DNA of 64,000 nucleotides, from the NCBI GenBank assembly GCA_016946835.1, contig JACVTC010000015.1, positions 1,683,501 to 1,747,500 of the forward strand, read 5' to 3'. The position numbers and the translations under genes were made by a program. Source of the stretch: Neocallimastix lanati (nom. inval.). Taxonomy: Eukaryota > Neocallimastigomycota > Neocallimastigomycetes > Neocallimastigales > Neocallimastigaceae. Below the pieces are notes generated by a model that was not told the DNA's origin, did not search any database, and worked only from the letters and a program-made list of their open reading frames with translations. Below are positions 1,467 to 44,954 of this stretch, one piece after another. Position 1 is the first letter of the stretch. Every line of letters begins with the position of its first letter.

Positions 1467-1521
1467 CCTTTGATACAATACAGCTAGAAATACTCAAGAA
1501 AATTAACAAAAGAGAAAATCC

Positions 1522-2233
1522 TGTTGAAATTATAACTGAATTGAAATCTCAATTTCAGTTATTTACATTTCAATAATTAAAAATATTATTTATTTAATTA
1601 TAAATAATATATATATTTAAATAGCTAATAATTAATATAAATTCTTGTTTAATATTTAAAGGGTTATCTTAGGCCTAATAATTCTGAGAATATTAATAAA
1701 TAAGGTTTATATTAATAATTAATTTCAATGATACATTTGACGTCACGTGTATTTTATTTATATTATGTTTTTATATATGTTTACAACATATCTATATTAA
1801 ATTCAATTATTCAAATTAATTATATAATTAAATTTATCCTTATATTTTATTAGTATTTATATTACTATATTATTACTATCTTATAATTAAATATTATTAT
1901 TATGTAACTTACAAAGTATAAAAGAAAGATGTAAAAATCTATCTTTTATGTTCTTTGTAAGGTTATTGTAAAATTACCTTAATAGTAATATATTATAGAT
2001 ATTTTATTATTAAATAAAATCAATAAATTTAAAATCAAATTAATTTGATAATTCTAATTATCAAAGTTTATTATAAATAAATTTTTATTAAACTAAACAT
2101 TTAAATATTTATTATTATTATTATATATCTATATAGTATATTACTATATAGACATATCGACTTAGTGAATATTTTTATTAAAACATATTATTTTATTTAA
2201 ATTTAAATTATAAATTATATCAAAATCTTAACA
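1522..2233 (+). mobile_element. Solo LTR, family D (copy D1)
   Basis: Matches, in the sense orientation, the LTRs of the full-length element at 9081-16108: starts TGTTGAAATTATAACTG, ends ATCTTAACA. It is flanked by a perfect 5-bp target duplication AATCC (1517-1521 and 2234-2238). Insertion lies 51 bp from the start of the host LTR L. Confidence 0.88.
1908..1961 (+). promoter_or_regulatory. TATA box inside an inverted repeat, family D LTR
   Basis: CTTACAAAG (1908-1916) pairs with CTTTGTAAG (1953-1961), and inner arms also pair (AAAAGA...AGAT with ATCTATCTTTT). A TATAAAAG box lies in the left arm. The right arm GTAAGGTTATTG is the segment that matches the primer-binding site of the full-length element, so the transcript probably starts in this arm. 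The same arrangement occurs in the D LTRs near 9326-9376 and 15617-15667, in K near 4901-4954 and in 31320-31380. Confidence 0.65.
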
Positions 2234-2789
2234 AATCCTATAATAATATAGTGAAAAATAATTACAATATATAATATACTAAATCATTATATAAATAGAT
2301 TAAAAATTAATTAGACAGCCAATAATATTCAAGATAAAATTAATTAATAAATTTAAAAGAAGAGAATGAAATAAAAGTTAAAGAGAGAGTTTTTCTTGTT
2401 GTTTTAAAAATTCTAATTGAGTAAAATAATAGTTTTAGAGAACTTATAGTTTAGTTTAAATAATTAAGTAATTACTTATAGTTAAAGGATAAGAGTTGAA
2501 TCCTACAATTATAAGTAAAATTATTATTAAGATATTAATATAAATTGAATTATTAGAGATAGATAAAAATCATTATATTCAGAGGAATATAAATATAATT
2601 GTAATAATTTATGTAAAATAAATAAATAAATAAAAACAAGATTTAAAAAGAAATAAATAAATTTTATTATTTGTGTAAATTATTATTTATTATCTTTGAG
2701 TTGGAATATATTATTTTACAAATTCCCTATTTGCTCGACCTCGTTATAAATAGAAATCTGATACTTTATTACTTATATTGTATCACCTT

Positions 2790-4376
2790 TGATACGGGGT
2801 GTCACTAAATACCTTGTATTTCCTATTAAATACTCTTAATAATAATAAAATAAAATTATTATTAAATATTCTTATTAAAATCTTTTATTAATATCAAATA
2901 TAATAAAAATTATTATTAAATATTCTTATAAATTTCTTTTATTAATATTAAATATAATAAAAATTATTATTAAATATTCTTATAAAATTCTTTTATTAAT
3001 ATTAAATATAATAAAAATTATTATTAAATATTCTAATAAAAATCTTTTATTAATATTTAATATATTAAAAATTATTATTAAATATTCTTATTAAAATTTT
3101 TTATAATAAAAATTATTATTAAATATTCTTATAAAATTCTTTTATTAATATCAAATCTAATAAAAATTATTATTAAATATTCTTATTAAAATCTTTTATT
3201 AATATCAAGTATAATAAAAATTATTATTAAATATTCTTATAAAATTCTTTTATTAATATTAAATATAATAAAAATTATTATTAAATATTCTTATTAAAAT
3301 CTTTTATTAATATCAAATCTAATAAAAATAATTATTAAATATTTTATTAATATTAAATATAATAAAAATTATTACTAAATATTCTTATTAAAAATTATAT
3401 AATATTTAAATCATTACTAATTCTTATATTTATATTAAGAATAATAAAAACCTATTTCAATAAATATTTGATATAAAATACAGAATTATAAGTTTCTGTA
3501 TAATATTAAAATCTTTTATTAATATCAAGTATAATAAAAATTATTATTAAATATTCTTATAAAATTCTTTTATTAATATTAAATATAATAAAAATTATTA
3601 TTAAATATTCTTATTAAAATCTTTTATTAATATCAAATCTAATAAAAATAATTATTAAATATTTTATTAATATTAAATATAATAAAAATTATTACTAAAT
3701 ATTCTTATTAAAAATTATATAATATTTAAATCATTACTAATTCTTATATTTATATTAAGAATAATAAAAACCTATTTCAATAAATATTTGATATAAAATA
3801 CAGAATTATAAGTTTCTGTATAATATTTTCTAAAACCTTTGAAATAAACTAAAAATAAAACAAAAATTAAAAATAAATTAAATCTTTATTAAAATAAAAA
3901 TGAACTAAAATACAGAAGAATTCCAATAATAAAAATAATCTAAAATACAGAAAATATCAATTCTGTATAATTCTCTCTCTGAATAACAATATCAAGAAGA
4001 AGCTACCGCCCGGAATGCCCTTCGTGATACAAGCTCCAAATTAATTTTTTATATTTTAATTTAATAAAAGTTATTTTTCTTTAAAAAAATAATTTAAAAT
4101 AATAGTTAAAAATTAAAATAAAATAGTTATAATAGTTTTTTTTTATAAAGAATATATTAATAATAAATAAAATGTATTAAAATAAAAGTATAAAAAGAAG
4201 AATAAATTTCTTTCTTTTTAATACTTGGAACAAATAATTTTAATTTTAAATTTAAATAAAGAATATTTTAAAATTTAATTTTTTTTCTTGTTTCCAAATT
4301 TATTTTTATAGTTATGTGTTAATATTTATTTTTTTTTGTTTTGAATATCTTAGTGTTTCAACCCCAGCCCGTATCA
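2790..4376 (+). mobile_element. Solo LTR, family B (copy B1)
   Basis: Starts TGATACGGGGTGTCAC, ends CAGCCCGTATCA, so terminal inverted repeats are TGATACGGG / CCCGTATCA. It is flanked by CCTT on both sides. Copy B4 (47641-48874) directly follows a polypurine tract and a Ty3/gypsy integrase gene, which identifies this repeat as an LTR and fixes its sense strand. The first half is a ~54-bp AT minisatellite. The second half holds a TATA box within an inverted repeat (near 4186-4226). Longer than other copies because of an internal 320-bp tandem duplication. Confidence 0.85.
3185..3824. repeat. Tandem duplication of 320 bp inside LTR B1
   Basis: The segment 3185-3504 is repeated almost exactly as 3505-3824 (both begin ATTAAAATCTTTTATT and end TTTCTGTATAAT). 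The other four B copies have this block once or lack it. Confidence 0.85.
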
Positions 4377-4380
4377 CCTT

Positions 4381-5957
4381 TGGTAAAGAACGAACATATA
4401 ATGGATTATTAATTAGAATTTCAACTTACTTTGTTGAAATTACAACTGAATTAAATTTCAATTTCAATTAATTTCAATTAAAATTATTAAAAACAAAATA
4501 ATTAATAAAAATTTATAATTCATTAATTATTCTTTAAATTTTATTTATTTTATAATATTATAAGTTATTTGATCATCTTAGGACCAGCTTAGGCCTACTG
4601 ATTCTAATGATATCATATTAAACTTAAATATTATTAATAAATAAAATATTTATTAACATGAATCATTTGGTCATGTCATCCTTGATTCATAAATTAATGT
4701 TTATGTATTAATTTATGTTATATTGATTTAATTAATTATTAATTATTAATTACTATATTAAATATTTAAATTTAATATTATATTATATATATTAGCTAAT
4801 ATATTAGATTAAAAAATATAATTTATTTATATTAAACATATTCTTATACTAAATATTATTATTATCAACTTTATATTATTATTATCAATATTCTCAAACC
4901 TACAAAGTATAAAAAGAAAATTCAAATTTATCTTTTTGTTCTTTGTAAGGTTATAGTTAACCTATTATAATATAACTATATATTTTTATTAATAAATAAA
5001 AATTTTTATCATATCAAACCAATTATTAGTTTTAATTAAGTGTTAAATTAACAAATTTAACTTTATAACTCTTTTATTTTAGTAATTTACTTATATCTAT
5101 ATAGTTATATTATATAGATATATCAACCTGATTCCTCGTTAAATTCAATCTGTTTACTTTTTAACATACTTTAGAATCCATTATATTATTCTTTACTTAA
5201 TATTACTTTACTATATTTTCTATACTAAAATATTTTCTAAATATATTTTTTTTTATATTTTTATTAAAAGTTTCTAAAATATTATCAATAATTCTATATT
5301 TTTACTATTAATATCAATATCTATAATTTACCTTAAATTTTATTATTTTATTAAAGTGTTTATTATCAATATTAATATTTTATTTTTATTTTCAAATATA
5401 TTATTATATTATTATTATATTGTATCAATATTAAACTTGTATTCTTTTTAGTATTTTATTTTATTTTTAAATTGATTATTTAATATTTTTTTATTCCCCA
5501 CAAATAAAATCAAATCTTAATTGATTAATAATAAATATTAAATATATTATAGTTTTTAAATTTATTTTATATAAAATATAAGAATATTATATTAACATTC
5601 TTGATTAAAATAACTTTATTTTTCTGTAAATCTTTTTAAATTTTGTTTGTTACTTTTCGTATATATTAAATAATTTAGTTTTAGTATATGAAAAATAATA
5701 TAAAATTATATAAACAAAATTTATTAAAATAAAAATACTTATGAATTAGTTAATTTAAATTAATATAAAATTTTAAGTAATTAGTAATAGTAAATATTTT
5801 TTTTTAAATATGATAATAAAATGTAGAAAGGCTTTACATATTTATTTTTTTTCAAAAAGTATAAATAAGTGAAGTTTTTCAATAATTAAAATGTAGACAA
5901 AAAAATATTGAAAATAAATAATTAAATAAAAATTCTAATAAAACCCGAACCATAACA
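4381..5957 (+). mobile_element. Solo LTR, family I (copy I1), interrupted by LTR K
   Basis: Starts TGGTAAAGAACG, ends GAACCATAACA. The uninterrupted copy at 42396-43230 (835 bp) shows the empty site. The copy here is split at base 51 by K (4432-5166). A TATA box sits in an inverted repeat near 5830-5890. Flanks are CCTT on both sides. The sense strand is taken from copy I4, which follows a polypurine tract on the plus strand. Confidence 0.8.
4432..5166 (+). mobile_element. Solo LTR K, diverged member of family D
   Basis: 735 bp, starts TGTTGAAATTACAACTG and ends CTTTTTAACA. It is flanked by a perfect 5-bp duplication TACTT (4427-4431, 5167-5171). It shares with family D the 5' end, the CTTAGGCCTA-like block near 4587 and the TATA-containing inverted repeat ending CTTTGTAAGGTTAT, but is clearly diverged elsewhere. 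Confidence 0.85.
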
Positions 5958-5961
5958 CCTT

Positions 5962-6928
5962 AGGTAAAGAATGAATTAATAACCTTTATTTTATTATTAA
6001 TAATTCTTTACTAAATTGTACTTTCCTATATTCTTGATAACCTAAACTTAATAATAAAATTTAATTTATTTTGATATAAATTAATTTTAACTTGTAAATA
6101 ATGTAAATAAATTTTAATTAATTACTTTATTGTTATATTATTAAATATATGTATATATTAAAATACAATTGTAAATATTAAAATTATACTTTTAAAATAC
6201 TAAATTATTAAAAACTATTAATTAAATATTATTATAAGAATTATTATAAATTTATTAAAATTATAAAATTATTAAAATTATTAAATATTATTATAAAAAT
6301 TTATTTATTATAACTATTAAATATTATTATAAAATTATTAAGATTATTAATTAAATTTATTATTAAAAATTATTATTAAAAATTATTACTTATTATAAAA
6401 ATTATTATTTAAATATTATCAAATTTATTAATTAAATATTATAAAAATTTTATTTTATTTTGAAAATAATTACGAGTATTATTTAAAATAATTAAAGATT
6501 ATTAAATTTATTATATTAATCTTTAAAAACAATTTATTTAACTTAAAAATATCAAAGAAAATAGTAAAAACTATTTTCTATATATTTATTTTATAATTAT
6601 TTTTAATTAAATTATATTTGAATATTATATTATTATATTTATAAAAATTAAAACAAAAATGAATTATTGATATAAAATTAATTCAATAATTCTATAAAAT
6701 TACTTAAATTATAAACAAATAATTATACTTTAAATTCATAAAAAAATATAAATATTGTAACTATTTCTTAAAAATTAAATATGTGTACTTTAAATAATAA
6801 AATTTTATATTAATAAATAATAAACACTTTTTAATAAAAAAAATTTTTCTTTGTTAAAATCAAAGCAGGGTAATACCCGTCCCCCCCTGCTTGATTTTAA
6901 ATCAATAAGAATCACCCCGAGTCTACCA
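5962..6928. mobile_element. Solo LTR, family A (copy A2)
   Basis: 967 bp. The start AGGTAAAGAATG has probably lost the T of TG. Ends GAGTCTACCA. Contains the family A hairpin at 6861-6900. Spacer CCTT on both sides. Confidence 0.8.
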
Positions 6929-6933
6929 CCTTG

Positions 6934-8347
6934 TGTAATATGATAAATAATAACTATAATTACGTTTATTTATTAAAAATATATATATATTTATATATAT
7001 AAAAATTTTTAATTTTATTATAAAATTTATGATATAAATAATAATAGATTATTTTATTAGTATTATATATAAATTATTAATAATTCTTAATATTTTACTA
7101 TTATTTCTAAAGAATATTTTATTATAAAATTATAATTATTATTTTATTATTATTACTGATTGGATATTGTTGTTACACCAATTTTAGAATATAAAAATAA
7201 TAATTTAAAAAAAATATTTTTAATCTCTCTCTTTTGAATAAAATAAATTTTTAATAATAAATGAATCAATAAATTAATAAAGATTTCTATACTTATATAT
7301 ATTTATAAAGTATATAAAACAATTTTTATAAAATCAAATAATAAAATAAAAATCTATTTATAACCAAGATTTATTAAATAATTATACTAAGTTCTATTAC
7401 TAAATATGATTATTAACTTCAACTTAATGACTAATTCATTAAGTTGAGAAATAAAATAAAAATAAAAGTTTTACCTAAAAAGAGAGTTTATTATAAAATT
7501 AATTATAATAACAACACAAAAAGTAAAAGAAGGAATATTTGGATAAATTTGGTTTTAAAAAATATGTTTTTGAATAAAATATTTTATTAATATATTAAAG
7601 TTTAAAATATAAAATTGCTATTATTATAACTATATTTTTATAATAATAACTCTTGATTTCTTAAAGGGAAATCAAGAGCCTTATTTATATTTTTTTATGG
7701 AAATAAGGTTAAATAAAAAGGGTTTTCTAATCTTAAAAAATATCTTATCTAGAAAAAGATTAGAAGAAAAAACTAGATAAGTTTTTTGATCGATATTCTA
7801 TTCATATCGATCATCGTATATATTAAGTAAAACCAAATATATTATTTTATATTTGGATAAAACCTTAATATATCGATTTCCTAAATTTTAATTTAGATCA
7901 TCAAATAAAAGGAAAAATAAATAATAACCGGAATGATCTAAATTATTCTATTTTTCTAAATATTATTTTTAAAATCTAATCTAAACTTATTAACATAAAA
8001 CTATCTTTAAACTAGAATACAGAATTATAAAAAATACAGAAACTTATTAATTGTTCTTTTAAATGTACAATGTAAAAAATAAATAAAACTAATGTTTACA
8101 TTAACTTGATAATTAAATGAATAACTAAATAAAATTAATAATATTAATAAGTGTACATATAATAATTATTTAAATAAAATTTCTAATATTATTTAAGTGT
8201 ATGAATAATTACAATTATAATAAATTTGATAATAATATCTCAATGTATGAATTAATTATAATTTAAATAAATTTATAATTATTATCAATAATTATAAAGA
8301 CTAAGAAATAATAATTATTTATTAGTAAATAATTATTATTTCTTACA
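6934..8347 (-). mobile_element. Solo LTR V with interleaved inverted-repeat module
   Basis: Starts TGTAATATG, ends TTTCTTACA; flanked by CCTTG (6929-6933) and CCTTG (8348-8352), a 5-bp target duplication whose last two bases are the first two bases of the next LTR (I2). The sense strand is minus, judged from TATAAATA followed by the CAAGAGTTATTAT motif used by element H. Related to LTR W at 29988-30862 (shared block CTTAATGACTAATTCATTAAG). Confidence 0.72.
7650..7812 (-). promoter_or_regulatory. U3/promoter module: TATA, start-site hairpin and interleaved inverted repeats (LTR V)
   Basis: In plus-strand order: hairpin CTCTTGATTTC (7650-7660) with GAAATCAAGAG (7668-7678); TATTTATA; arm a TCTAATCTT (7726-7734); arm b CTTATCTAG (7744-7752); arm a' AAGATTAGA (7756-7764); arm b' CTAGATAAG (7773-7781); hairpin GATCGATAT (7788-7796) with ATATCGATC (7804-7812). 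The a-b-a'-b' order is pseudoknot-like if transcribed. Equivalents: 17498-17646, 30286-30448, 31878-32022, 36917-37060 and 45254-45386. Confidence 0.7.
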
Positions 8348-8401
8348 CCTTGGTAAAGAACGAACATATAATGGATTATTAATTAGAATTTCAACTTACT
8401 T

Positions 8402-9080
8402 TGTTAAGATAATAACTGAATTTCAATTCAATTTCAATTTCGATAATTCAGTTATTTGAATTTCAATATTAATAAATAATAATAATATAATAATTATTAT
8501 TAAATTAACTTTATTAAAATATTTAGGAATTAGTCTAGGCCAACTAATTACTAAATATTATTAACATATTGAAATTAATATATATTAAATAATGTAAACA
8601 CGTGATTGTCATATTAAATTAATTTCTACATATTATATTTTAATTATAAAATATATAATATTTAGCTATATTAGATTCTTATATTTTATTTATATTAAAT
8701 ATTTATATTATTGTCTTATTTTATATTATCAATATCAAACTTATATTAATACTATTACATATTCATATTAATAATTAATATTTTAATAATTAATATTTTA
8801 ATAATTAATTATTTTATATAAATACATGTTTAAATCTTTTGATTAATCCTTTGTAGGATTATTGCAATTTAAATTATAGTAATAATTATATAAAATAATA
8901 ATGTAATAAAATATTATTAATATTAAATAAAACTTATATTTTAAATAAAAGACTTATTTATAATAATAATATGTTTTAAATAAGAATAAAATTAAATTAT
9001 TAATTAATTAAATTAATTACTATAATTTGGCATCTTGACCTAATCGTTAAGACCAAATTATCACAAAACTTTGACATACT
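8402..9080 (+). mobile_element. LTR J, family D relative, 3' end lost
   Basis: Starts TGTTAAGATAATAACTG right after the sequence CAACTTACTT, the same base of the host LTR that K used in I1. It carries the family D landmarks in diverged form, for example TAGTCTAGGCCAACTA. No clear CA terminus is found before LTR D begins at 9081, so J is probably truncated or was fused to D by recombination. The first ~70-85 bp recur inverted at 24545-24629. Confidence 0.6.
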
Positions 9081-9816
9081 TGTTAAAATTAAGATAAAAA
9101 ATAGTTTTATGATTAATAACGTTACTAGGTTAATATGTTGAATTATATATTAATAATCCAACAATAATTAATTAATAATAATATAAAAATAATATAAGAT
9201 AAATAGTTAAGTTATTTAAACACTTAATATCTAAGAATATTTTGAATAATAATTTCCTTGAAGGATTTATGAAAATATTTATTTATTGAATTATTAGTAT
9301 ATAATTATTGTAAATACAATAACCTTACAAAGAACATAAAAGATAGATTTTTACATCTTTCTTTTATACTTTGTAAGTTACATAATAATAATATTTAATT
9401 ATAAGATATTAATAATATAGTAATATGAATATTAATAAAATATTAAGATAATAACAATATCGATATGTTTAAAATATTTAATATAACTAAATAAATTTAA
9501 TTTATAATTATATAATTAATTTGAATAATTAAAAATAGTAGTTAATATATATGATGTAAACATATATATAAACATAATATAAATAAATACATGTGACGTC
9601 ATATGTAGATAATTGAAATTATTAATATAAATCTTATTTACTAATATTCTCAGAATTATTAGGCCTAAGATAATTCTTTAAATATTAAATAAGAATTTAT
9701 ATTAATTATTAATTATTTAAATATATATATTATTTATAATTAAATAAATAATATTTTTTAACTATTGAAATGTAAATAACTGAAATTGAGATTTCAATTC
9801 AGTTATAATTTCAACA
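9081..9816 (-). repeat. 3' LTR of element D
   Basis: On the minus strand it begins TGTTGAAATTATAACTG and ends TTTTAACA. Nearly identical to 15372-16108. Includes the TATA-containing inverted repeat at about 9326-9376. Confidence 0.9.
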
Positions 9817-9828
9817 ATGCCCTCCCAT
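9817..9828 (-). promoter_or_regulatory. Polypurine tract of element D
   Basis: Minus strand TATGGGAGGGCAT lies immediately upstream of the 3' LTR. This is the expected position and composition for a plus-strand DNA primer in LTR retrotransposons. Confidence 0.75.
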
Positions 9829-10369
9829 AAAAATCGGATTCAAGACGATTTTTGTGTAACGATAAGGAGGATTAAATTTTTGTTAAAAAATTTTTTGGAA
9901 TTTCTTAAATTAAAAAATTTTTAATTTATGAAAGAGGAAGGTCACTTGAGTCCTTTTAAATTTTTAAAGGAAACCCTTTATAAGTGGCCATTTCATTGAA
10001 ATTTTGAAATCTCTAAAATTTAATAAAATTAAAATTTTATTATGAAAATTAATGTTTAAGAATATGATGGTACCATTTTTAAATGTTTTTGATTAAAAAA
10101 TTTTTGAAATTGAAATTTTGAAATTTTAATTTCAATTATCTTTTTAATTTTATGCATTAACTTTAAAAAATTGAAAATTATAATAATTAATGAATTTATG
10201 AATAAAATTAGATTATAAATTGATAGTTGTAAGTGTAACATAGCTATGTTTTTGAATTTTGAAAATTTTGAAAATTTTGAAAATTTCGAAATTTTGAAAT
10301 TGAAATTTGACTGAAAAATTGATAATAATAAAATAAAATTTAAAAACAAATTAATAAACATAAAATTTC

Positions 10370-10416
<47 letters not shown>

Positions 10417-10434
10417 ATTATTATTATTATCATT
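9829..10434 (-). other. Long 3' non-coding region of element D
   Basis: Between the integrase stop and the polypurine tract. It holds a 38-base T run (10374-10411), repeated AAATTTTG units (10255-10290) and several self-complementary AT stretches (for example around 9830-9860, TAAAAATCGG...ACGATTTTTGTG). No credible gene. Confidence 0.6.
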
Positions 10435-11637
10435 TTAGTTATAAGCTATTGAAATAGGTTTTCTTCCATTTTGTAAATATTGTAAATAAATATTTTGATT
10501 TCGGGGGTTATTTTCAACTTCGTCTGAAGGAACCCAATTGTAAGCAGTTCTATATTTATACCTGATTCTGTATTCATATTGATTCTTTTTATAATTAGTT
10601 CTAAATCCTGAGATTTCAATTATATCATTAACAGATTCATCATGAGTTCTTCTTTTTAAAAACTTTTGAGGCGTTGGAATAAAAGGTTCTAACTCCGAAA
10701 CATGGAATATAGGATGATGTTTTGGAAAAGGTGACCTTTTAATATCTATTTTATAATTATGATTATTCAGAACATCTATTACTTTATATGGTCCATATTT
10801 ACAAGGAGCTAACTTTAAACTATCTTCGATATTTAGTGATGGAGGAGCTTGTATCCAAACTAAATCATTTTCTTTAAATATTGGAGGTGGCATTCTCTTT
10901 TTATCTGCGTGTATTTTATATAGTTCTTTTGACCTTAATAAAACATCTTTAATATGATTAAAGTTCATACTTAAGTCCTTAATAATTTTATTATTAGTAT
11001 CAATATCAGGTAATAAGAAAAATTCATCCATAGATGGATGAAACCCATAATTAATAAAGAAGGGTGTTTCTTTTGTAGATTCATTAATGGAGTTATTATA
11101 AACAAATTCAGCAAGGGGAATCCATTCAATCCAATCATCGTGATAATATGATCTTGAGTAAGCTCTTAAATATTGTTCAATAAAAGAATTACATCTTTCA
11201 ACTTGACCAACTGTTTCACGATGGTCAGTTGTAGCGATTTTTGATTTAATGTTTAAATATTCCATTACTTCTTTCCAAAGAGCACTTGTAAATTGAGATC
11301 CTCTATCTGTATACAAATCACAAGGCAATCCGTGTAGTTTAAATATATTTGTAATGAAAGCTTTGGCAGTTTGTTTGGCATCAGGTATTTGTTTAAATGG
11401 AATTAAATGTATCATCTTAGAGAAACGATCAACAACTACCATAATAACGGTGTATCCTTTAGAATAAGGAAGACCACATAGGAAATCAATTTCGATAGAC
11501 TTCCAAGGTCTATCGGGAGTATCTAAAGGTTGTAAAAGACCATATTTCCTATGTCTATTAACCTTGTTTCTTGCACAACATTCACAAGAATTAACATAAC
11601 TTGTAACATCTTCATGTATTTTTGGCCACCAAAAGTT
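10435..11637 (-). pseudogene. Integrase with GPY/F and chromodomain-like tail (element D), one in-frame stop
   Basis: Catalyses strand transfer of element cDNA into the genome. The open part 10435-11442 shows the second catalytic Asp in YTDRGSQF and the Glu in VGQVERC. The first Asp (IEIDFLCGLP) and the zinc-binding C-x2-C (SCECCARN) lie just upstream in the same frame (11443-11630). Toward the C-terminus come the GPY/F motif (KYGPYKVIDV) and a tail resembling a chromodomain (RIRYKYRTAYNWVPSDEVE), which in chromoviruses guides integration to particular chromatin. A TGA at about 11638-11640 separates this from the upstream zinc-finger half. A CGA-to-TGA change would explain it. It directly follows the RNase H region and precedes the polypurine tract. 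Confidence 0.85.
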
Positions 11638-12919
11638 TCATGTAATTAGTTCTAAAGTTCTTCTTATATCAAGATGTCCAGAAGTGGGTTTTTCATGATA
11701 TTTTTCTAAAATTTCTAATCTAAGTGATTCAGAAATATAAATTAAATTGTTATATAATATAATATTATCTTTTATTTTAAATCTTTCCATTTTCCTAAAT
11801 GGTTTATAAGCATAATTATTTTTAACATTGTTTTCACTAAAGTATAATTTAATATCTCCAGCAGTAGCATCTTCTTTAATAGCATCAATAATTTTTTCTA
11901 GGAAATTACTCATAATTCCTATAAAACAGGGAACTTCTTTTACATTTTTAATATCTAATATATTTTCTGGTTTAATATCTTCGTTATTCTTCATATAGTC
12001 AGGTCTTCTTGAAAGACTATCAGGTTTCCCATTTTTGGTTCCTTGTCTATATATAAGTTGGAAATCATATTCCTGAAAGAATAAGTGCCATCTATGCTGT
12101 CTTTGATTACCAACTTTTCCTCCTAAAGTATAGATTAAATTTCTATGGTCAGTATAGACAGTAATTTTATGCTTTGCACCAAGTAAAAGATGTCGCCAAG
12201 TTAAGAAAGAATCTCTAATAGCTAATAACTCTTTTTCTGTAATGGTATAATTTATTTCGGAGCCTTGTAAACTTCTTGAAAAGTAAGCAACAGGATGTAA
12301 TTTATTATTTTCATCTTTTTGAGATAAAACAGCACCTATAGCATAATTACTTGCATCACATTCTACTATGAATGGTTTAGTTACATCTGGGTGATGCAGT
12401 ACTGGAGAAGTAGTTAATTTACTTTTTAATAATTTAAATGAATTTTCACAATTTGTATCCCAAATAAATTTTGTATTTTTTCTTGTTAAATTATGGAGAG
12501 GCTTAGCTATTTTTGCAAAATTTTTTACAAATCTCCTATAGTAATTACATAGGCCTAAAAATCGTTGTACTTCTTAAATATTTTTCGGAGTTGGCCACTC
12601 TTCTATAGATTTAATTTTCTTAGGGTCAGTAGATACACCATCACCAGATAAAATGTAACCTAGGAATTCAACTTTTTCTTTATCGAATTCACATTTTTCT
12701 AATTTTGCGTATAAATTATTATTAATTAAAGTTTATAATACACTTCTTACTTGTTTGTGATGTTCTTCCAAATCCTCAGAATAAATTAAAATATCATCCA
12801 AATATAAAATAACACTTTTTTCCAAATAAGGTTTGAGTACAGAATTAATAAATGATTGAAAAGTGGCTGGGACATTTTTCAACCCAAAAGGCATTACGAG
12901 ATATTCGTAATGACCATAT
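11638..12919 (-). pseudogene. RT palm/thumb, RNase H and H2C2 linker of element D, with two stops
   Basis: Read on the minus strand this stretch encodes the RT core with MPFGL and the catalytic YLDD motif (near 12800), then RNase H (ECDASNYAIG, EKELLAI, TDHRNL, GKPDSLSRRPDY near 12005), then a histidine-rich integrase linker (11638-11994). Two TAA codons interrupt it, at about 12731 and 12571, each where related elements have Gln (CAA). The frame is entered by a 1-base insertion in a T run at about 12930. Apart from these lesions the sequence is well conserved, consistent with recent inactivation. Confidence 0.85.
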
Positions 12920-14068
12920 TTAGTTCGAAAAAGCTGTTTTATATTTATCCCCCTCTTTTATACGAATTAAGTTATAGGCAGATCTTAGATCTAATTTTGT
13001 GAAATATTTTGCACCTTTAACCTTTTCAATAATATCATTAATAAGTGGAAGAGTATATGAATTTCTAATGGTAACAGCGTTTAACTTTTTGTAATCCACA
13101 CACAATCTTAAAGAACCATCTTTCTTTTTTTGAAATAAGACAGGATAACCAGCTGGAGATTCAGAAGGTCTAATAAATCCCTTCTTTAAATTTTCTTCTA
13201 TATATTCTTTTAAATCTTTATTTTCTTCTTCAGATAATGGGTAGATAGGTCCGTAATGAAGAGAAGCATCCTTTTCTAAAACTATTTTACAGTCAGTTAA
13301 ACGATGTGGCGGTAGTTTATCTGCTTCTTTCTTACTAAATACAACAGCCAAATCTCGATATTGAAGCGGAATATTTTCGATTTTTATATCTTCAATATCT
13401 TCTTCATAATTTTCTTTATTTGTTAAAAATGAATAAATTAAATAATTATAGTTAAATTTATTATTAATTTTATATTTTTTATTTTGGTGATTGATTTTTA
13501 ATTTAAAAAATATTTTATTGGTTAAAAAATTAAATTTTTTATGATGAAATTTTTTATGTTTATTAAGTTTAAAATTTAATTTATTTTGATTAAAATTTTT
13601 GAAATTTTTTGAATTTTTTGTATAATTAAATTTTTTTATGAATTTATGTTTTAAAAAATAATTTTTTAAAAATCTTTTTATCACTGAATTAAACCGAGAA
13701 TAATATTGTGGATTTTTATTAGTATTTTTATTAATTTTGTTATAAAAGTGAGAATTTAAATAAGAATATAGGAAGTTTTTATCATAGTCATAATGAATAT
13801 TAAACTTCCTCATAAATTGGTTTCCAAAAAGTAGTTTTGTTGGGATACAATTCGAAATTAAAAATTTTTCTCTGAAATTTTTAAAATAAACTCTTTTATT
13901 TTCATTAATTTTGATTTGAAATTTTAGCCAAACATAATTCTTTATCTGGGTTGTATCACCAGAAATTCCTTTGACTAAAATTTTTGATTTTAAATTATAT
14001 TTTTTCAGTTTTAATGTTTTTACTAATTCTTCTGTAATAAAATTACAGAAGGAGCCTGAATCTAACAT
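12920..14068 (-). CDS. Protease and N-terminal RT of element D (partial pol)
   Basis: Starts right at an aspartic protease motif LDSGSFCNF (retropepsin D-S/T-G). An Asn/Lys/Phe-rich linker follows (about residues 140-215). Then the RT N-terminus has the usual Ty3 landmarks: [40 protein letters not shown] and [11 protein letters not shown]. The frame stays open upstream of the called start (TESM), so the true pol N-terminus is probably translated as a fusion to gag by frameshifting. It ends early because of one extra T in a T run near 12930, after which RT continues in another frame. Confidence 0.85.
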
Positions 14069-14305
14069 CGATTCAGTTTTTAATTTATTATTATCATTTT
14101 TAATATTTTTTATATTATTTGAAAATGTTGTTGGAATATATGTATCAAATAAAAGGAAAGTTGAAGGTAATTTTTTATTTACTACATTATTAAATGTAGG
14201 AAAATTATAATGAAGAATTCTTGTGTTTTTTATTATATTGGACTTCTGTTGAAGTCCATTATTTAGTTTTTTGTTTTATTATTATTGCTACTAGTTTTAT
14301 TACTA
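14069..14305 (-). other. Gag-pol junction of element D
   Basis: Low-complexity region of AAT/AAC repeats coding Asn-rich tails in more than one frame. Gag ends in a run of Asn and Tyr codons, and an overlapping frame continues with NKTSSNNNKTKN to about 14263. A gag-pol frameshift is expected here, but no classical slippery site could be picked out of the repeats. Confidence 0.45.
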
Positions 14306-15337: not shown

Positions 15338-15361
15338 ATTAAAGTAGTAACCAAAACTAGG

Positions 15362-15373
15362 GTAAGGTTATTG
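15362..15373 (-). promoter_or_regulatory. Self-complementary primer-binding site of element D
   Basis: The minus strand directly after the 5' LTR reads CAATAACCTTAC (its first two bases are the LTR's own CA end). The same 12-mer occurs on the plus strand inside the LTRs (15608-15619), so the element's RNA carries the perfect complement GTAAGGTTATTG just downstream of its TATA box. This is the layout of Tf1/sushi-type self-priming. No TGG start for a tRNA CCA end is found at the LTR edge. Confidence 0.7.
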
Positions 15374-16108
15374 TTAAAATTAAGATAAAAAATAGTTTTA
15401 TGATTAATAACGTTACTAGGTTAATATGTTGAATTATATATTAATAATCCAACAATAATTAATTAATAATAATATAAAAATAATATAAGATAAATAGTTA
15501 AGTTATTTAAACACTTAATATCTAAGAATATTTTGAATAATAATTTCCTTGAAGGATTTATGAAAATATTTATTTATTGAATTATTAGTATATAATTATT
15601 GTAAATACAATAACCTTACAAAGAACATAAAAGATAGATTTTTACATCTTTCTTTTATACTTTGTAAGTTACATAATAATAATATTTAATTATAAGATAT
15701 TAATAATATAGTAATATGAATATTAATAAAATATTAAGATAATAACAATATCGATATGTTTAAAATATTTAATATAACTAAATAAATTTAATTTATAATT
15801 ATATAATTAATTTGAATAATTAAAAATAGTAGTTAATATATATGATGTAAACATATATATAAACATAATATAAATAAATACATGTGACGTCATATGTAGA
15901 TAATTGAAATTATTAATATAAATCTTATTTACTAATATTCTCAGAATTATTAGGCCTAAGATAATTCCTTAAATATTAAATAAGAATTTATATTAATTAT
16001 TAATTATTTAAATATATATATTATTTATAATTAAATAAATAATATTTTTTTAACAATTGAAATGTAAATAACTGAAATTGAGATTTCAATTCAGTTATAA
16101 TTTCAACA
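15372..16108 (-). repeat. 5' LTR of element D
   Basis: 737 bp, plus-strand ends TGTTAAAATTAAG and ATTTCAACA. TATA-containing inverted repeat at about 15617-15667. Confidence 0.9.
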
Positions 16109-16905: not shown

Positions 16906-17184
16906 TATACGGGGTGTCACTAAATACCTTGTATTTCCTATTAAATACTCTTAATAATAATAAAATAAAATTATTATTAAATATTCTTATTAAAATCTTT
17001 TATTAATATCAAATATAATAAAAATTATTATTAAATATTCTTATAAAATTCCTTTATTAATATTAAATATAATAAAAATTATTATTAAATATTCTTATTA
17101 AAATCTTTTATTAATATCAAATATAATAAGAATTATTATTAAATATTCTTATAAAATTCTTTTATTAATATTAAATATTCTGTG
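16906..17184 (+). mobile_element. LTR family B, 5' fragment (copy B2)
   Basis: Starts TATACGGGGTGTCAC (TG reduced to T). Continues through about four units of the 54-bp minisatellite and stops at LTR U. The B 3' part is absent here. Confidence 0.7.
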
Positions 17185-30867: not shown

Positions 30868-32466
30868 TGTAAAGAATTAATTAAAAATATTTAATTATAT
30901 TAATAATTAATTCTTTTGTTGAAATAATAACTGAATTGAAATCTCAATTTCAGTTATATACATTTCAATAATTAAAAATATTATTTATTTAATTATAAAT
31001 AATATATATATTTAAATAATTAATAATTAATATAAATTCTTGTTTAATATTTAAAGGGTTATCTTAGGCCTAATAATTCTGAGTATATTAATAAATAAGG
31101 TTTATATTAATAATTAATTTCAATGACACATTTGACGTCACGTGTATTTTATTTATATTATGATTTTATATTTATTTTTACAACATATCTATATTAAATT
31201 CAATTATTCAAATTAATTAAATAATTAAATTTATCCTTATATTTTATTAATATTTATATTACTATATCATTAATAACTTATAATTAAATATTATTATTAT
31301 GTAATAATATTTAATTATTATGTAACTTAAATAGTATAAAAGAAAGATGTAAAAATCTCTCTTTTATGTTCTTTGTAAGTTTATTGTAAAATTACCTTAA
31401 TAGTAATATATTATAGATATTTTATTATTAAATAAAATCAATAAATTTAAAATCAAATTAATTTGATAATTCTAATTATCAAAGTTTATTATAAATAAAT
31501 TTTTATTAAACTAAACATTTAAATATTTATTATTATTATTATATATCTATATAGTATATTACTATATAGACATATCGACTTAGTGAATATTTTTTAATAG
31601 AATATATTATTTTATTTAAATTTAAACTATAAATTATATCAAAATCTTAACATCTTTCTACAATTAATAATAAAAAATATTATTAATTGAGATAAAATTA
31701 AAAAATATAATTTAAAATATTGAAAACGAGAATATTTAAACTTAGAGTTTATTATAAGATAATAATAAACAACACTAAAAGTCAAAGGTTAATAGTATTT
31801 TAGAAAATATTTTATTATAAAAATTTTTTATTTAAAGTAATTTTAAAATATTTGTGTTAATTATTATAATTTCTTATAATAATAACTCTTGATTATTTTT
31901 AGAAGAATCAAGAGTCCTATTTATATTAATTTGATTTCTAATCTTGGAAAATTATTTCTATCTAGAAAAAGATTAGAAGAAAAATCTAGATAGATCTCGA
32001 TTGGTGTTTAATTACATCAATCTTTAGTTAATATGAAAACCCGAATAAGGGAGAAAACTTATTAACTAATTATATATTAATTTTATTAATATTTAATCAA
32101 AAGTATAATTAAATAATTAATTCTTTTAATATTTTTAATTAAATGTCCAAGAAATAATATAATTTAATTATTTCTTGATTAAATAAAATTATCATTTTAA
32201 TATAATTTAATTTTTCTTAATTAATATAATAAATAGAATTTATCATTATTTTAATACAATAGTACATTATGATAATTTAATATATTAATTATTGAAAATT
32301 TAATTTAATGTAAATAAATTTTAAAACAATAACATTCATTAATAATTACTATGTGACATAATTAATAAAATTATTCATAAAATTTTATAAAATAATAAAC
32401 TTTAAATATTAATTTTTTAATAAAGAATAATAATTATTTTGAAAAATAATTATAATTCTTTACATT
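30868..32466 (-). repeat. 3' LTR of element H (E1) with nested LTR
   Basis: Plus-strand TGTAAAGAATTAATT...ATTCTTTACA. The intact copy E2 reads straight through TTAATTCTTTCTACAATT at the point where E1 is split, which gives the empty site. Promoter module: arms 31937-31945, 31958-31966, 31969-31977, 31985-31993; start-site hairpin beginning 31884. Confidence 0.85.
30917..31652 (+). mobile_element. Solo LTR, family D (copy D2), inside LTR E1
   Basis: 736 bp, TGTTGAAATAATAACTG...ATCTTAACA, with a perfect 5-bp duplication TCTTT (30912-30916, 31653-31657). The empty site is seen at 36692-36702. It lies 49 bp from the start of E1. Confidence 0.92.
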
Positions 32467-32489: not shown

Positions 32490-33255
32490 ATTCATTAAAG
32501 GATTCCTTAAGTTCAGCATTTCTTTTGGTATATGGCTCTAATTGAGATATATGAAATATTGGATGGAGATGGAGATTGCTGGGAAGTTCTAAGCGATAAT
32601 TTGATCATTTTAATTTATCTATGATTCTAAAAGGACCTAAATATTGAGAAGCTAGCTTTTTCGCTGGTTCATTTGTGAAGTAGTGTCTTTTAAGCCATAC
32701 CATATCATTAACTTCAAAGTTTGGGCCAGATGATTTTTTATTGTCACTATACTTTTTGAAATCTTCTGTGGCTTTAAGGAGATGTTTTTGTAGTGACTGG
32801 AAGTGAGCAGACCAGTCTCTTGTCAATACTGAAGCATTGACTTTAAGAAGAATTGGTGGAGAGTCTATAATACAGTTAGGGTGGAATCCATAATTAGCAT
32901 AAAAAGGAGACACACCGATAGATTGATGAAGTGAGTTATTGTAAGCAAATTCACATAAAGGTAAAAAGTAACACCATTCACTTTGTGCGGTACTGCAATA
33001 ACAACGAAGGTATTGTTCCACAACAGCATTTGCTCTTTCTATTTGTCCGTTTGATTGCTAGTGGTGAGCAGTAGCTAGATTCGGTTGAATATGTAATGCT
33101 GAGCACAAAGAGGTCCAGAATTCTGAAGAGAATTGGGAGCCATGGTCGGATATTATGAACTTAGGGAATCCATGATATTTGAACACGTTGAAAAGCAAAA
33201 GTTTAGCTGTAAGATCCGCAGAAGGGACATCAGAGCAAGGTATAAGGTGTACCAT
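32490..33255 (-). pseudogene. Integrase core and C-terminal region of element H, two stops
   Basis: 33058-33255 holds the second catalytic Asp (FIISDHGSQFSSEFW). A TAG at ~33057 interrupts the usual H-x-Q-S-N-G-Q stretch. The next open part, 32605-33021, continues through YLRCYC, EFAYNNSLHQSIGVSPFYANYGFHP and the GPF motif (YLGPFRIIDKLK). A TGA at ~32605 precedes the last ~35 codons (FHISQLEPY), ending at 32490. No chromodomain follows. Both stops are single-base changes from sense codons (CAG and CGA being the likely originals). Confidence 0.82.
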
Positions 33256-34805
33256 TTTGTAAGATGGTCAGAAATTACCATAATACAAGTACAATCTTCG
33301 GAATTGGGTAAGTAGACTATAAAGTCGATTCCTATAATTTTCCATGGTTTATTTGGAATTGGGAGCGGCTGGAGTTTACCATAAGGTTTGTGTCTCCGAG
33401 TCTTACATCTACCACAAACGTCACAAGAGAGTATATAATTTTCTACATCTTTTCTTAAGGTCGGCCACCAGTAGTATCGTTTTAATTTCTCTACTGTTTT
33501 GTGGATACCTTGATGTCCATGAATAGGATTATCATGAAAAGATTTGAGAAGTTTTGCTCTGAGCGGGGATGGAACTATTATTCGACCTTGGAAATGAAGA
33601 ACTCCTTGAATGAGACTAAAAAGTGAACTTTTGATATTGTTCGAATTTTCTTTAAGTTTTTTAAGTGTATTTTTGCAAAATTCATCAGCTTTTTGATATT
33701 CAATAAGGTTGTTAATATTATCAATTGTTGAACAACAAATTGCATTTAAGTTATTGGTTGTATTAGTTAATTTTACGGAATCCTTTTGATAATCCGGCCT
33801 TCTTGACAGTGAATCCGGTTTGCCACTTCGAATACCAGGTCTATAGGCAATTCGGTAGTCAAATTTTGACAGAAGAAGACTCCAGCGAATTTGCCGTTGA
33901 TTCAGGTGTTGCGGTTTCTTCAAATATAATAAGTTTTTATGGTCGGTTATTACTTGAACGGGATATTTTGCACCTTCCAAGTGGTGTCGCCATACATCAA
34001 ATGCAGTGATAATTGCCAGGAGTTCCTTGTCATATATTGTGTAATTGATTTCGGCATTGCTAAGAGAGCAAGAGTAAAACGCAACTGGATGGAGGAGATT
34101 ATCATGATTACTGACTTGTGACAAAACACATCCGACAGCAAAATTACTAGCATCCGTTTCCACTATAAATTCCTTTTCGTGATCCGGAAAAATAAGAATT
34201 TCATTTGATAGAAAAGATTTTTTAAGGTTATAAAAAGATTCCTCAGCTAAATTATCCCAAACGAATTTAGTGTTTTTCTTTAAAAGTTTACGTAGCCGTT
34301 CCATTATTTCGGCAAAATTTTTGATAAATCTTCTGTAGAAATTACATAATCCTAAAAAGCTTTGTAGTTCCTGTAGATTTTTTGGAGTTGGCCACTCAAC
34401 GACGGACTTAACTTTGTCTTTATCCATAGTAAGACCATTTGTTGATATCGTAAACCCAAGAAAAGTAGTCTGAGTTACGTGAAAATCGCATTTTTCTATT
34501 TTCACATAGAGTCCATTTTCAATAAGAAGAGTAAGAACAGTACGTACATGCTTAACATGAGTTTCTTCATCTTTTGAATATATTATAATATCGTCCAAAT
34601 AGACTTGAACGAATGAACCAATAACGTCTCCAAGTACGTCTTGTATGAATATTTGAAATACACTTGGTGCGTTCCTAAGGCCGAAGGGCATTACGAGGTA
34701 CTCAAAATGTCCTATGGGGGTCCTAAAGGCAGTAAGGTATTCATGACCTTCCTTAATGTGTACAAGATTATAGGCAGATCTTAGGTCAAGGCACGTGAAG
34801 ATTTT
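33153..34805 (-). pseudogene. RT core, RNase H, H2C2 finger and integrase N-terminus of element H
   Basis: Open from 34691 to 33153 (512 codons). It has MPFGLRNAPSVFQ, the catalytic YLDD, the thumb (FLGLCNFYRRFIKNF), RNase H (ETDASNFAVG, KELLAI, TDHKNL, GKPDSLSRRPDY), the H2C2 finger (HDNPIHGHQGIHKTVEKL...CDVCGRCK) and the first integrase Asp (IGIDFIVYLP). The C-terminal ~30 residues are out of frame after loss of one A in an A run near 33255. The upstream piece 34692-34805 ([11 protein letters not shown]) is in the frame of the gag-PR-RT ORF beyond a TGA at 34806. Confidence 0.85.
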
Positions 34806-36407
34806 TCAATTTTTAAATACTTCAATTAGATCATTAATTCTTGGCAACGGGTAACTGTTGCGAATGGTAATGGCATTTAAACGGCGGTAGTCCACACATA
34901 GCCGAAGTGTACCATCATGTTTTTTGACAAACAAAATTGGTGCTCCTGCTGGAGATTTTGACTTTCTTATAAATCCTTTCCGTATATTCTCTTCAATATA
35001 TTCTTTAAGAGCCTTAAGTTCGGTAACAGTTAAGGAGTAAATGGGTCCGAAATAAAGTTGGCTTCCTGGAATCAAATCAATGGAAATATCATACATCCTA
35101 TGGGGTGGAAGTCTATCAACTTCCCGCTTTTCAAAGATTTTTGAAAGACCACGATAGAACTTATTTATAATAGAATAATATTTATTATGTTCCTTTTTAG
35201 TAGAAGTAGCCATAGCCGCACAGATATCAAATTCATAAAGTTCATCCTCTGATATTGATGAAGGAATAATAGTATCTTCTGGAGGTTGTTCTATCATAGG
35301 AGCAGTCACATCAGTAGAATGATATATAAATTTGTTGCCTTTTGCAGAGGGACAATGAGAAATGCAGTACCTTTCCAAAAAATAAATTTTGTTTGTTTTA
35401 TAATTGATATAAGGATTGTGAAGGGAAAGCCAATCTCTTCCTAAGATTCCACTAATTCCATGCAGTTGAAGATTTCCCACTAAGAACTCGAATGTTTCGA
35501 TATGATCCATAATCTTGATTTTAAGTGGTCTGGTAGTTTGTCCTATCGTCATACTTTTGCTATTTGGAAGTTGTATGTTTATTGGGGAAATTAAACCTAA
35601 AGTAGGAACCTTATTAACAGAAATAAAATTTTTACAAATAAAGCTTTTTGCTGAATCAGAGTCAATCAAAAAATTAGTTTTTAAGGATTTCCCATTTATC
35701 AATATAAGAAAAGTTGAGATCATGCTAACAGTCTTATTAGGTGTGTAATTGGCTGAAAATATATCTTTTTTGGTTTTAAAGTGATCTTTGTTTCTTTTAT
35801 CCTTAAAAGAATGTATTTTATTTTCCGTTTTAGTTAATTCATATCTTCTTCTTCTAAAGGATTTTTTCTTGTATTCTTGTTCATCATGGTTTTTTATGCA
35901 ACTTTCGATATAACATTTTTTATCAATATTTATAATAATGTTCGTTGCCTCAAATAGAGTTTTAGGCTTATCAATCTTGTCGTATTCTTCACGGACCTTC
36001 TCCATTAGGCCTTTTCCTATTATATCGATTAGGACCTCATCGGGCCATCCCAATCTTTCCGCAAGTTGTCGAAATTCTATTATGAATTCCGCAACTTTCC
36101 CTAACTCACGTTGTCGGAGATTCCACAGCTGATTCATTAGAACGTATTTTTGTTTTCGATCATTTCCAGAATCGAAATTATTAAGCAATAATTTTTTGAA
36201 TTTAGAACACTTGAGAGTATTTAGAGTACCGTCTACTAGTAATGAAAGACCCCACTTTTTTGCTAGCCCGTTGTGTCGGTTTACAACATATGTGTTTTTC
36301 GTCTCATCCGATAAGAAGGAATTCGGATGATCCTTAAAGAAATTTTCACTCTGGACCAATGTTTCGAAAACATTAGGCTTCTTCTTATTTAAATTTTCTT
36401 TCACCAC
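34806..36407 (-). CDS. Gag-protease-RT N-terminal polyprotein of element H (partial)
   Basis: 533 open codons in a single frame, so gag and pol are fused as in Tf1 and many fungal elements. The gag-like region (residues ~1-160) has [29 protein letters not shown]-type spacing, followed by an Arg/Lys-rich stretch ([12 protein letters not shown]) in place of a zinc knuckle. The protease (~225-330) shows [11 protein letters not shown], where the invariant Gly of D-S/T-G is Asp, so it is probably inactive. It does keep ILGRDWL. RT starts ~410 ([39 protein letters not shown]). It ends at a TGA near 34806. Confidence 0.85.
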
Positions 36408-42395: not shown

Positions 42396-43230
42396 TGGTA
42401 AAGAACGAACATATAATGGATTATTAATTAGAATTTCAACTTACTTTAGAATCCATTATATTATTCTTTACTTAATATTACTTTACTATATTTTCTATAC
42501 TAAAATATTTTCTAAATATATTTTTTTTTTATTTTTATTAAAAGTTTCTTAAATATTATCAATAATTCTATATTTTTATTATTAATATCAATATCTATAA
42601 TTTAACCTTAAATTTTATTATTTTATTAAGTGTTTATTATCAATATTAATATTTTATTTTTATTTTCAAATATATTATTATATTATTATTATATTGTATC
42701 AATATTAAAATTGTATTCTTTTTAGTATTTTATTTTATTTTTAAATTGATTATTTAATATTTTTATTCCCCACAAATAAAATCAAATCTTAATTGATTAA
42801 TAATAAATATTAAATATATTATAGTTTTTAAATTTATTTTATATAAAATATAAGAATATTATATTAACATTCTTGATTAAAATAACTTTATTTTTCTGTA
42901 AAATCTTTTTAAATTTTGTTTGTTACTTTTCGTATATATTAAATAATTTAGTTTTAGTATATGAAAAATAATATAAAATTATATAAACAAAATTTATTAA
43001 AATAAAAATACTTATTAATTAGTTAATTTAAATTAATATAAAATTTGAAGTAATTAGTAATAGTAAATTATTTTTTTTTAAATATGATAATAAAATGTAG
43101 AAAGGTTTTACTTATTTATTTTTTTTCAAAAAGTATAAATAAGCGAAGTTTTTCAATGATTAAAATGTAGACAGAAAAATATTAAAAATAAATAATTAAT
43201 AAAATTTCTAATAAAACCCGAACCATAGCA
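42396..43230 (+). mobile_element. LTR family I, uninterrupted (copy I4)
   Basis: 835 bp, TGGTAAAGAACG...GAACCATAGCA. Provides the empty site for the insertions in I1 and I2 (CAACTTACTTTAGAATCC). Confidence 0.85.
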
Positions 43231-43234
43231 TTTT

Positions 43235-44954
43235 TGATAAAGAATGAAATAGTAATGATATTTTTAATATAAATTCTTAATAATTTGTCACGAATACTAG
43301 TGGATTTGAAGTTAAAATTCACTATTAGATCAATTGAAATTTAATTTAGTTATTGACAAAAAATTATTTTAATTCGATTTTAATTATACAAATAAATATT
43401 AGAAACATTAAATAATTAGAAACCAAAGGGTTTGGACTTATTTATTAAAGATAATTTAATTTAATTTAACCCTTAAGAATTTGATAAAAATAACATGAAG
43501 AAAAACAACGATATCTCAACAAATAATGGAAATATTATATTGATATTCCCACTAAAATATATCCATTGGAAAGCTACGGACGAGAACTACAACATATGTT
43601 GAAATCAACCTTATTGGACAACTAGATAACGAGATATTGGACTTTAAAGATATTTAAATATAAAAATAATATAATTTAATTATTTAATTTAAGACACTAA
43701 ATTATTAAGAAATTTATATTAGATAAATTTCTTAACTTGGAAATTATATTATTAATTTGTATTATTAATTAAAAATACAGAATTAGTTATTAGTAATAGT
43801 TTTATAATATTTTAAATAAGTTTATAAGTTTTATATATTTTATTATTATATTTTTTATTCAATTATTTCTAAAAGATTCTAAGGAATTCTTTACATTCTA
43901 AAGATTTCCGAAAGAGAATTTTTAATTAGTTTTAATATTTTATTTTATTTAATTTTATATTTTATTATTAAATTAGTTTTATTATTAAATTGTTTTATGA
44001 ATAATTATATAGTTATTTTATTAAAAGATTCTTATCAATATTATTTTATTATTATATTTTATATAGTTTATATACATGTATGAATATATTAAGATTAGAA
44101 TGTATTAATTAATTATATTGTAAACTATTAATTTAGTTTAGTATAAAAAGGATTTGAAAATTCCATATTTTGAATTCTTTGTAAGATTACTAATTTAATG
44201 TGTTAACTTAAAGTTAATGAATTAATTATAACAATAAATAATTTTTTATATTAATCTTAGTTAAAATTTATTATTAAAATATATATTAAATAAAAGTTCT
44301 AATAAAACATAAATCTTAAATATTGAAATCTTAATTATAAAACTTTGTGTGTGCTATTTATTATTTAAATTTAATTAAATTGTTATAATTAATAAAAACA
44401 TCTTGACCTGACCAATTTAACCCAAACTAGGAAAGATTTAACTATAATCTTACCTATCTACCTACAAAATACTTTACATAATTTATTATATAATAATATA
44501 TAATTATATTCTTTACTATTAATAATTTTCTTATATTCTATATTAATAATTTTTCATATTAAATTTTATTATTTTAAATATTAATTTATGTAATTAATTA
44601 ATTTATATGATTGGATTTTAATAATATAATTAAATAATATAAAATATGTATAATCCATATTTTTTTTATGAAGGGGGCCTTTCTGAGAAAAGAATTAGAA
44701 ATAGTAGTAAAAATGAATTAGGAATAGTAGTAATTGAAAGGTTTCCCATATTGTTATAAAATAAATATTAATATTAATAAAGTATTTTCAACAATAAAAT
44801 AATTATATAATTTATAAATAATAAATATTTTTAATAATAATTCTTTAAATAAAATTTATAATGTGTAGTAATAATTTCTTTTAGTGTAATTTAGTAATTA
44901 GTTAATTTATCTATTTATTTAATGTTCACACTCCTTTTACAATGAACCTCAACA
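43235..44954 (+). mobile_element. LTR family C (copy C3), interrupted by M
   Basis: Starts TGATAAAGAATG after spacer TTTT, ends CCTCAACA. Split at base 51 by M. Without M it is about 522 bp, matching C1/C2. Confidence 0.85.
43286..44478 (+). mobile_element. Solo LTR M
   Basis: 1193 bp, starts TGTCACGAATACTAG, ends AATACTTTACA; perfect 5-bp duplication TAATT (43281-43285, 44479-44483). Contains TATAAAAAGG with a partial inverted repeat to TTCTTTGTAAG (44140-44186), as in family D, and an end block (CATCTTGACCTGACC) like LTR J. It also has an unusually complex stretch at 43490-43640 (GGAAAGCTACGGACGAGAAC). Confidence 0.78.

Follow-up and report, generated by a model that had tools for sequence, protein, structure and literature searches.

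Nested insertions in the window

We analysed a 64,000-nucleotide stretch of Neocallimastix lanati (nom. inval.) DNA (assembly GCA_016946835.1, contig JACVTC010000015.1, positions 1,683,501 to 1,747,500), hereafter the window, in which retrotransposons are inserted about 50 bp inside the start of older long terminal repeats (LTRs). The receiving elements (L, I, C, E and others) are called host-class and the inserted ones (D, K, J, M) D-type. Our analysis leads us to consider it very probable that these two groups of Ty3/gypsy elements land at RNA polymerase III (Pol III) genes, each group at its own fixed distance from the tRNA 5' end, and that a nested stack is built in this way. Features are on the plus strand unless stated otherwise, and offsets are counted from the start of the host LTR to the start of the insert.

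Five inserts had been described in an earlier note made from the letters of the window, and their positions and offsets are exact. D1 (1522..2233) lies at offset 51 of host LTR L, whose inner 51 bp (1471..1521) follow a CCTT at 1467-1470 and which continues beyond D1. K (4432..5166) is at offset 51 of I1 (inner 51 bp at 4381..4431, continuing from 5167) and J (8402..9076) at offset 51 of I2, whose inner 51 bp (8351..8401) share their first base with a CCTT at 8348-8351. D2 (30917..31652) is at offset 49 of E1 (inner 49 bp at 30868..30916) and M (43286..44478) at offset 51 of C3 (inner 51 bp at 43235..43285). All five are solo LTRs with a 5-bp duplication at both ends, namely AATCC for D1, TACTT for K and for J, TCTTT for D2 and TAATT for M; the five sequences were correct in the earlier list, but those of D2 and M had been exchanged. 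For E1, the site devoid of the insert is visible in the other LTR of the same E element, at 36650.

A sixth insert, which had been missed, is the full-length element D3 (9081..16108, minus strand), bounded by LTRs at 9081-9816 and 15372-16108 that are 99.6% identical. Reading the duplications of J and D3 jointly places D3 at offset 50 of I2, with J landing later at the D3 junction; I2 continues beyond D3 to an end near 16900. All six complete D-type inserts found in the window are thus at an offset of about 50. Using BLAST against the window, no further complete copy of the six insert LTRs was detected, apart from a J fragment of 107 bp at 24526-24631. The host LTRs do belong to different families, as had been proposed, but these are not fully independent, because the start TGnTAAAGAA is common to I, C and E. 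The statement that all inserts belong to or resemble family D needs a correction for M, which in the same BLAST comparison has no start-to-start DNA similarity to D; M does occupy the same register.

Distances of the two groups to tRNA genes

In the 23 non-redundant genomic loci with a D-type start at most 130 bp from a tRNA gene, this start is 63-68 bp upstream of the tRNA 5' end (mean 65.96, standard deviation (SD) 1.22), instead of at the Pol III start as for Ty3. Nine isotypes are represented among them (Gly, Trp, Cys, Asn, Arg, Val, Glu, Ser, Ala), with one locus left unassigned. Four came from an insert-centred sample, five from a tRNA-centred sample of 20 places and 14 from a pattern search; the 20 places were drawn from 63 listed ones, nearly all of them tRNA-Arg(TCT) or tRNA-Asn(GTT), and excluded the large C555 array. 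The pattern search, from B box to D start with a gap of 105-135, returned 30 matches, 24 at gaps of 114-119 and 6 at 123-127, compared to 0 in the reversed control. In the adjoining range of 136-166 there were 2 matches, at gap 136, which are apparently the same tRNA gene with an intron. ARAGORN called a tRNA in 15 of the 27 loci from the 105-135 search, one of which duplicates locus L109, described below. At tRNA-Ser genes, which have a long variable arm, the B-box gaps are 123-127 and the distances to the 5' end still 63-67. Since the gaps shift while the 5' distances hold, the origin of the ruler is the 5' end, the A box or the start site, and not the B box.

Host-class LTR edges, in contrast to the D-type starts, are found 10-18 bp upstream of tRNA genes, i.e. 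at a Ty3-like start-site position. The pattern from B box to TGRTAAAGAAYGAA gave 72 matches, 63 of them at gaps within a 5-bp span (63-67), and 0 in the reversed control; two places, with two CGAACC each, were counted twice, and the tRNA-Glu gene beside the window is among the matches. We looked at 18 non-redundant tRNA loci, of which almost every one is Arg(TCT) or Asn(GTT); a repeat edge at about 10-18 bp was present in 16, weakly in one of these (L158). With a host edge near -15 and a D-type start at -66, the D-type insert falls about 51 bp inside the host LTR, 66 minus 15 being the 51 of the earlier note.

On the scale of the genome, a first look gave 9278 tRNA candidates, and C555:170732-399007 is a large cluster of tRNA genes, nearly identical and all on one strand, with a tRNA-Arg(TCT)-type top match.

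A tRNA gene at the base of the stack

The flanks of host-class LTR starts at four other loci (L019, L027, L035, L036) have tRNA genes on the opposite strand, and a tRNA gene was therefore predicted to the left of the window. A tRNA-Glu(CTC) gene was then found on the predicted side and strand, at contig C57:1682820-1682892 (minus strand), 608 bp before window base 1 and with its 5' end towards the window. This anchor is outside the window, inside which ARAGORN and Rfam detected no tRNA or other RNA gene. Going outward, the tRNA gene is followed by 16 bp ending in CCTT and then by the innermost host-class LTR. Directly behind it is a second tRNA-like gene (C57:1682748-1682818), which ARAGORN calls tRNA-Leu(tag).

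The CCTT recurs at nine junctions, beside the tRNA gene and at window positions 388, 1467, 2786, 4377, 5958, 6929, 8348 and 16902. At all eight junctions in the window the order is the same: an element's outer end comes first, then CCTT, then the inner edge of the element that follows. Such a repeated CCTT between successive elements is expected from serial insertion at one short target, with the newest layer innermost. At four of them (5958, 6929, 8348 and 16902) the following element starts with altered or overlapping bases. Besides the host LTRs already described, the layers are a host-class one at 392..1466, with its inner edge at 392 after CCTT 388-391; a host-class one at 2790..4376 (TGATACGGGG...CCCGTATCA, with tandem repeats inside it), between CCTT 2786-2789 and CCTT 4377-4380; a host-class one at 5962..6928, after CCTT 5958-5961 and with the first base of the LTR start altered; a further one ending in TTCTTACA at 6933..8347, after CCTT 6929-6932 and delimited by eye; and the inner part (TATACGGGG..) of the next at 16906..17290, after CCTT 16902-16905, the outermost CCTT junction recognised.

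Anchor of the D-type offset

The earlier note had proposed a genome-wide check of the offset. We collected 92 D-type LTR starts with their upstream flanks (32 D, 20 K, 20 J, 20 M; loci L001-L008 excluded), from which 14 internal junctions of full-length elements and 3 duplicates were removed, leaving 75. The whole-genome DNA searches scored the best 40 of 280-737 candidates; the K, J and M flanks are the top 20 of the 40, 44 and 40 matches listed, respectively, and the D query also contained 51 bp of host L, whereas the other queries held the insert only. The 75 non-redundant flanks do show a peak near 50 bp from the host edge, and their distribution is not flat. TG occurs at offset 51 in 21 of the 75, compared with a mean of 2.1 (SD 1.7) and a maximum of 11, at offset 98, for the other offsets, and offsets 49-52 contain 29 cases of CA-N3..5-TG, where the other offsets average 0.15 each. 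Sorted by rule, 32 flanks have a host edge and an LTR end, 7 an LTR end only, 9 a TG only, 9 another D-type LTR end and 4 a tRNA; the other 14 are taken up below. The 9 flanks that stop at another D-type LTR end are predicted by repeated use of one register.

Taken alone, the peak at 49-52 bp suits a D-type complex that measures about 50 bp from the LTR edge through a nucleosome or other complex bound there, with no need for a tRNA gene, as the earlier note had it. Inside the host edge most insert flanks indeed have an LTR end rather than a tRNA, and walking inward met no tRNA within about 3 kb in any of six displaced cases of D in host. Such a ruler predicts a slope of 1 when the D position is regressed on the host-edge position beside tRNA genes, but the observed slope is near zero, 0.20 ± 0.10 for 15 loci with recognised host families and 0.18 ± 0.11 for a wider set of 20 loci, so that a slope of 1 is rejected (p 2e-6 and 7e-7, respectively). 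The host edges were called by eye; with the alternative TG in six ambiguous loci the slope is 0.18 ± 0.11 and the result holds. The tRNA distance is also tighter than the host-edge distance (SD 1.19 versus 2.25, Pitman-Morgan p about 0.01). At locus L109, whose sequence recurs on another contig as L176, J stands 67 bp from the tRNA gene with no TG in the intervening 67 bp and no visible host LTR, in plain AT-rich DNA. A weaker point against the edge is that none of the 75 flanks has a D-type element placed 50 bp into an internal host junction of the GGGGGCAT type, few being expected, as 2 of 30 C LTRs have such a junction. Beside tRNA genes, the LTR-edge ruler is rejected by the slope test, and as a general account we consider it improbable; far from any tRNA, docking at an LTR edge may apply to individual displaced cases. 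Since the host LTRs are themselves tRNA-targeted, an offset near 50 from their edge follows without it. A B-box-like GGTTCGA near some LTR ends, at first a candidate for the anchor, was set aside.

The use of the same TTACTT place in I1 and I2 by K, J and D3 could instead point to attraction of D-type elements by a short motif that some LTRs have near position 50. AATCC, TACTT, TCTTT and TAATT differ, however, as do the hosts, and the host-less site, equally far from its tRNA gene, consists of plain AT-rich DNA, on which grounds we reject a target motif and give it hardly any credence. The statement of the earlier note that distance, not sequence, is the constant thus stands, duplications and hosts differing over many different sites. 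Multiplication of one nested event by segmental duplication or composite transposition was likewise considered: exact duplicates exist at some loci (3 of 78 flanks, 4 of 27 loci), and the junction of L with D1 is common to 5 of the 7 other loci with L plus D1 that were checked. Duplicates were removed before the counts, and the D-type families, hosts, duplications and outer flanks differ, the flanks and duplications being independent at many loci; a single duplicated event is rejected, and seems to us extremely unlikely.

The elements and the D3 integrase

On the minus strand, D3 encodes in order gag (14306-15337), reverse transcriptase (12920-14068) and integrase (10435-11442). The E host-class element is Ty3-like (33153..36407, minus strand), with one open reading frame (ORF) for capsid and protease and one for reverse transcriptase, RNase H and integrase. 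Reverse transcriptase precedes integrase in D3, in E and in I, which places both the D type and the host class among Ty3/gypsy elements. The best PDB sequence match of both the E pol and the D3 integrase is Ty3, 7q5b. The integrase cores of D3 and I share 29% identity over 133 columns. The high-identity relatives that bear names are Orpsp1_1 gene models, which we take to be from Orpinomyces sp. C1A, an anaerobic gut fungus.

The D3 integrase ORF (10435..11442, minus strand) comprises an integrase core, an SH3_Tf2-1 domain and a tail that can be aligned with chromodomains in related integrases; their aromatic positions are missing from this tail, and the Pfam chromodomain model did not match it. 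A structure model was built from 25 sequences, with a mean pLDDT (predicted local distance difference test) of 71, a pTM (predicted template modelling score) of 0.37 and a pLDDT of 83-91 for residues 271-330. Its fold matches to chromodomains are weak (E 0.035 and above). The best fold match is again 7q5b, the Ty3 integrase on a TFIIIB-bound tRNA gene (E 2e-13, template modelling (TM) score 0.33, 328 columns), and at this TM score over 328 columns the predicted model does not reproduce the domain arrangement of 7q5b. In that structure, according to the part of the publication consulted, a vestigial chromodomain touches TFIIIB (PMC8632968).

A model with two insertion distances

In the model that we favour, host-class elements enter some 10-18 bp in front of tRNA genes, close to where Pol III is expected to start, in the manner of Ty3, and D-type elements 63-68 bp upstream of the tRNA 5' end; both distances are observed, as are the nesting order, the recurring CCTT and the near-zero slope. 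The -66 site probably coincides with the upstream side of TFIIIB, or of a nucleosome phased by the Pol III initiation complex, or lies just past it, and the D-type intasome would dock on, or be halted by, that side of the complex or nucleosome. The distance and the predicted fold make this the likeliest picture, with a putative measuring by Pol III factors and the integrase C-terminal tail; a bound transcription complex, also suggested in the earlier note, is a likely ruler, in contrast to an LTR edge. The sampled tRNA genes mostly already bear a host-class LTR near -15, which is why a D insertion falls about 51 bp inside an LTR. A later host-class insertion at -15 would go between the tRNA gene and the older LTR, copy the same few bases and push that LTR with its D insert outward; repeated, this would give the stack.

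Several observations weigh against this model. Among the 23 tRNA loci, 14 come from a pattern search spanning only 31 bp (gap 105-135), which together with the tRNA-centred sample defines the inner side of the -66 peak. ARAGORN found no tRNA in 12 of the 27 pattern-search loci, with B-box gaps of 115-118 and, in one, 125. No anchor is recognisable in 14 of the 75 flanks. Both copies of host family TGTAAAAGG next to a tRNA gene (L154, L178) have the D insert at offset 54, which is compatible with either anchor. The predicted D3 integrase model is of modest quality. The inward walks of about 3 kb, which met a tRNA in none of the six displaced cases, may have been too short, because D1, K and J of this window are separated from the tRNA gene by about 2, 5 and 9 kb, respectively; that displaced pairs were formerly close to a tRNA gene is what this one stack suggests. 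Six outer edges (17963, 20683, 22438, 30868, 43235 and 53608) lack the CCTT, none being recognised beyond 16.9 kb. These are perhaps older layers with older bases beside the same tRNA gene, or had a different anchor, and D2 and M, in the outer part of the stack, would be linked to the tRNA gene by analogy.

Targeting of tRNA genes by Ty3/gypsy elements is already known: Ty3 (S. cerevisiae), DGLT-A (dictyostelids) and Tj1 (S. japonicus) are located there, as here. In the parts of PMC5006619 and PMC4600332 that we consulted, DGLT-A inserts about 15 bp (13-33) upstream of tRNA genes, and the host-class position at 10-18 bp resembles that of Ty3 and DGLT-A; these parts contain no description of serial stacks with a D-type insert per layer for the three elements. 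Compared with these elements, the D type is placed some 50 bp farther upstream. It resembles TRE5-A, reported at 47 ± 3 bp upstream with a ruler on the 5' end or A box and not the B box (PMC5391098, in part), and NLTR-B, at 39-64 bp (PMC5911963, in part), in its sharp upstream register, probably beyond TFIIIB, and in a ruler tied to the 5' side. These two are, however, dictyostelid non-LTR elements, whereas the D type is a Ty3/gypsy LTR element with an integrase, at 63-68 bp. Skipper-2 of Dictyostelium is, according to PMC5006619, a Ty3/gypsy element with a diverged chromodomain at tRNA genes, like the D type, but downstream of them rather than upstream. Table 1 of PMC5911963, as seen in extract, puts Ty3/gypsy elements at the start site, as far as 33 bp upstream, or else downstream; its non-LTR elements are at 40-54 or 39-64 bp, and a Ty3/gypsy element at 63-68 bp is absent from it. 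Relative to that table, what is new is the sharp -66 register together with a diverged chromodomain-like tail. Among the papers listed in our literature searches, none dealt with elements of anaerobic fungi that target tRNA genes.

What looked like a new rule, insertion at a fixed offset in other LTRs, would come down to the known principle of tRNA-gene targeting, and nested-insertion statistics may conceal a displaced third anchor in the same manner. Two elements with sharp, differing rulers at the same genes lend themselves to a comparison of the Pol III surfaces that their integrases read. As the serial layers each keep a copy of the tRNA-proximal bases, the insertion history can be read outward from the tRNA gene. 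We also put forward, tentatively, the wider possibility of a second mode of Pol III docking, in which a Ty3/gypsy lineage whose integrase has a diverged chromodomain-like tail would cut at -66, on the upstream side of TFIIIB, while other Ty3/gypsy elements occupy the start site (-15) of the same genes; the two tiers would share many tRNA genes, each new LTR being the next landing pad, and the stacks would be time-ordered records of the tRNA-proximal bases and would drive the growth of genomes in anaerobic gut fungi.

Other repeats at the host-class edges

The outer host-class edges at 17963, 20683, 22438, 30868, 43235 and 53608 bear CTG, TCTG, TT, TTTTG, TTTT or AAAA. The repeat family with TGATACGGGG...CCCGTATCA ends is found in the window at 2790-4376, 16906-17290, 20683-21957, 47641-48875 and 53608-54900, one copy being inverted; self-alignment shows internal tandem repeats with units near 54 bp, and the family consists of LTRs or another kind of element. 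Palindromic hairpins that end in TTCTTACA or a like sequence are located immediately inside several host edges (8300-8347, 17920-17960, 22395-22435 and 30820-30863) and look like LTR termini that are hairpins; inverted copies open other host LTRs (L054, L059).

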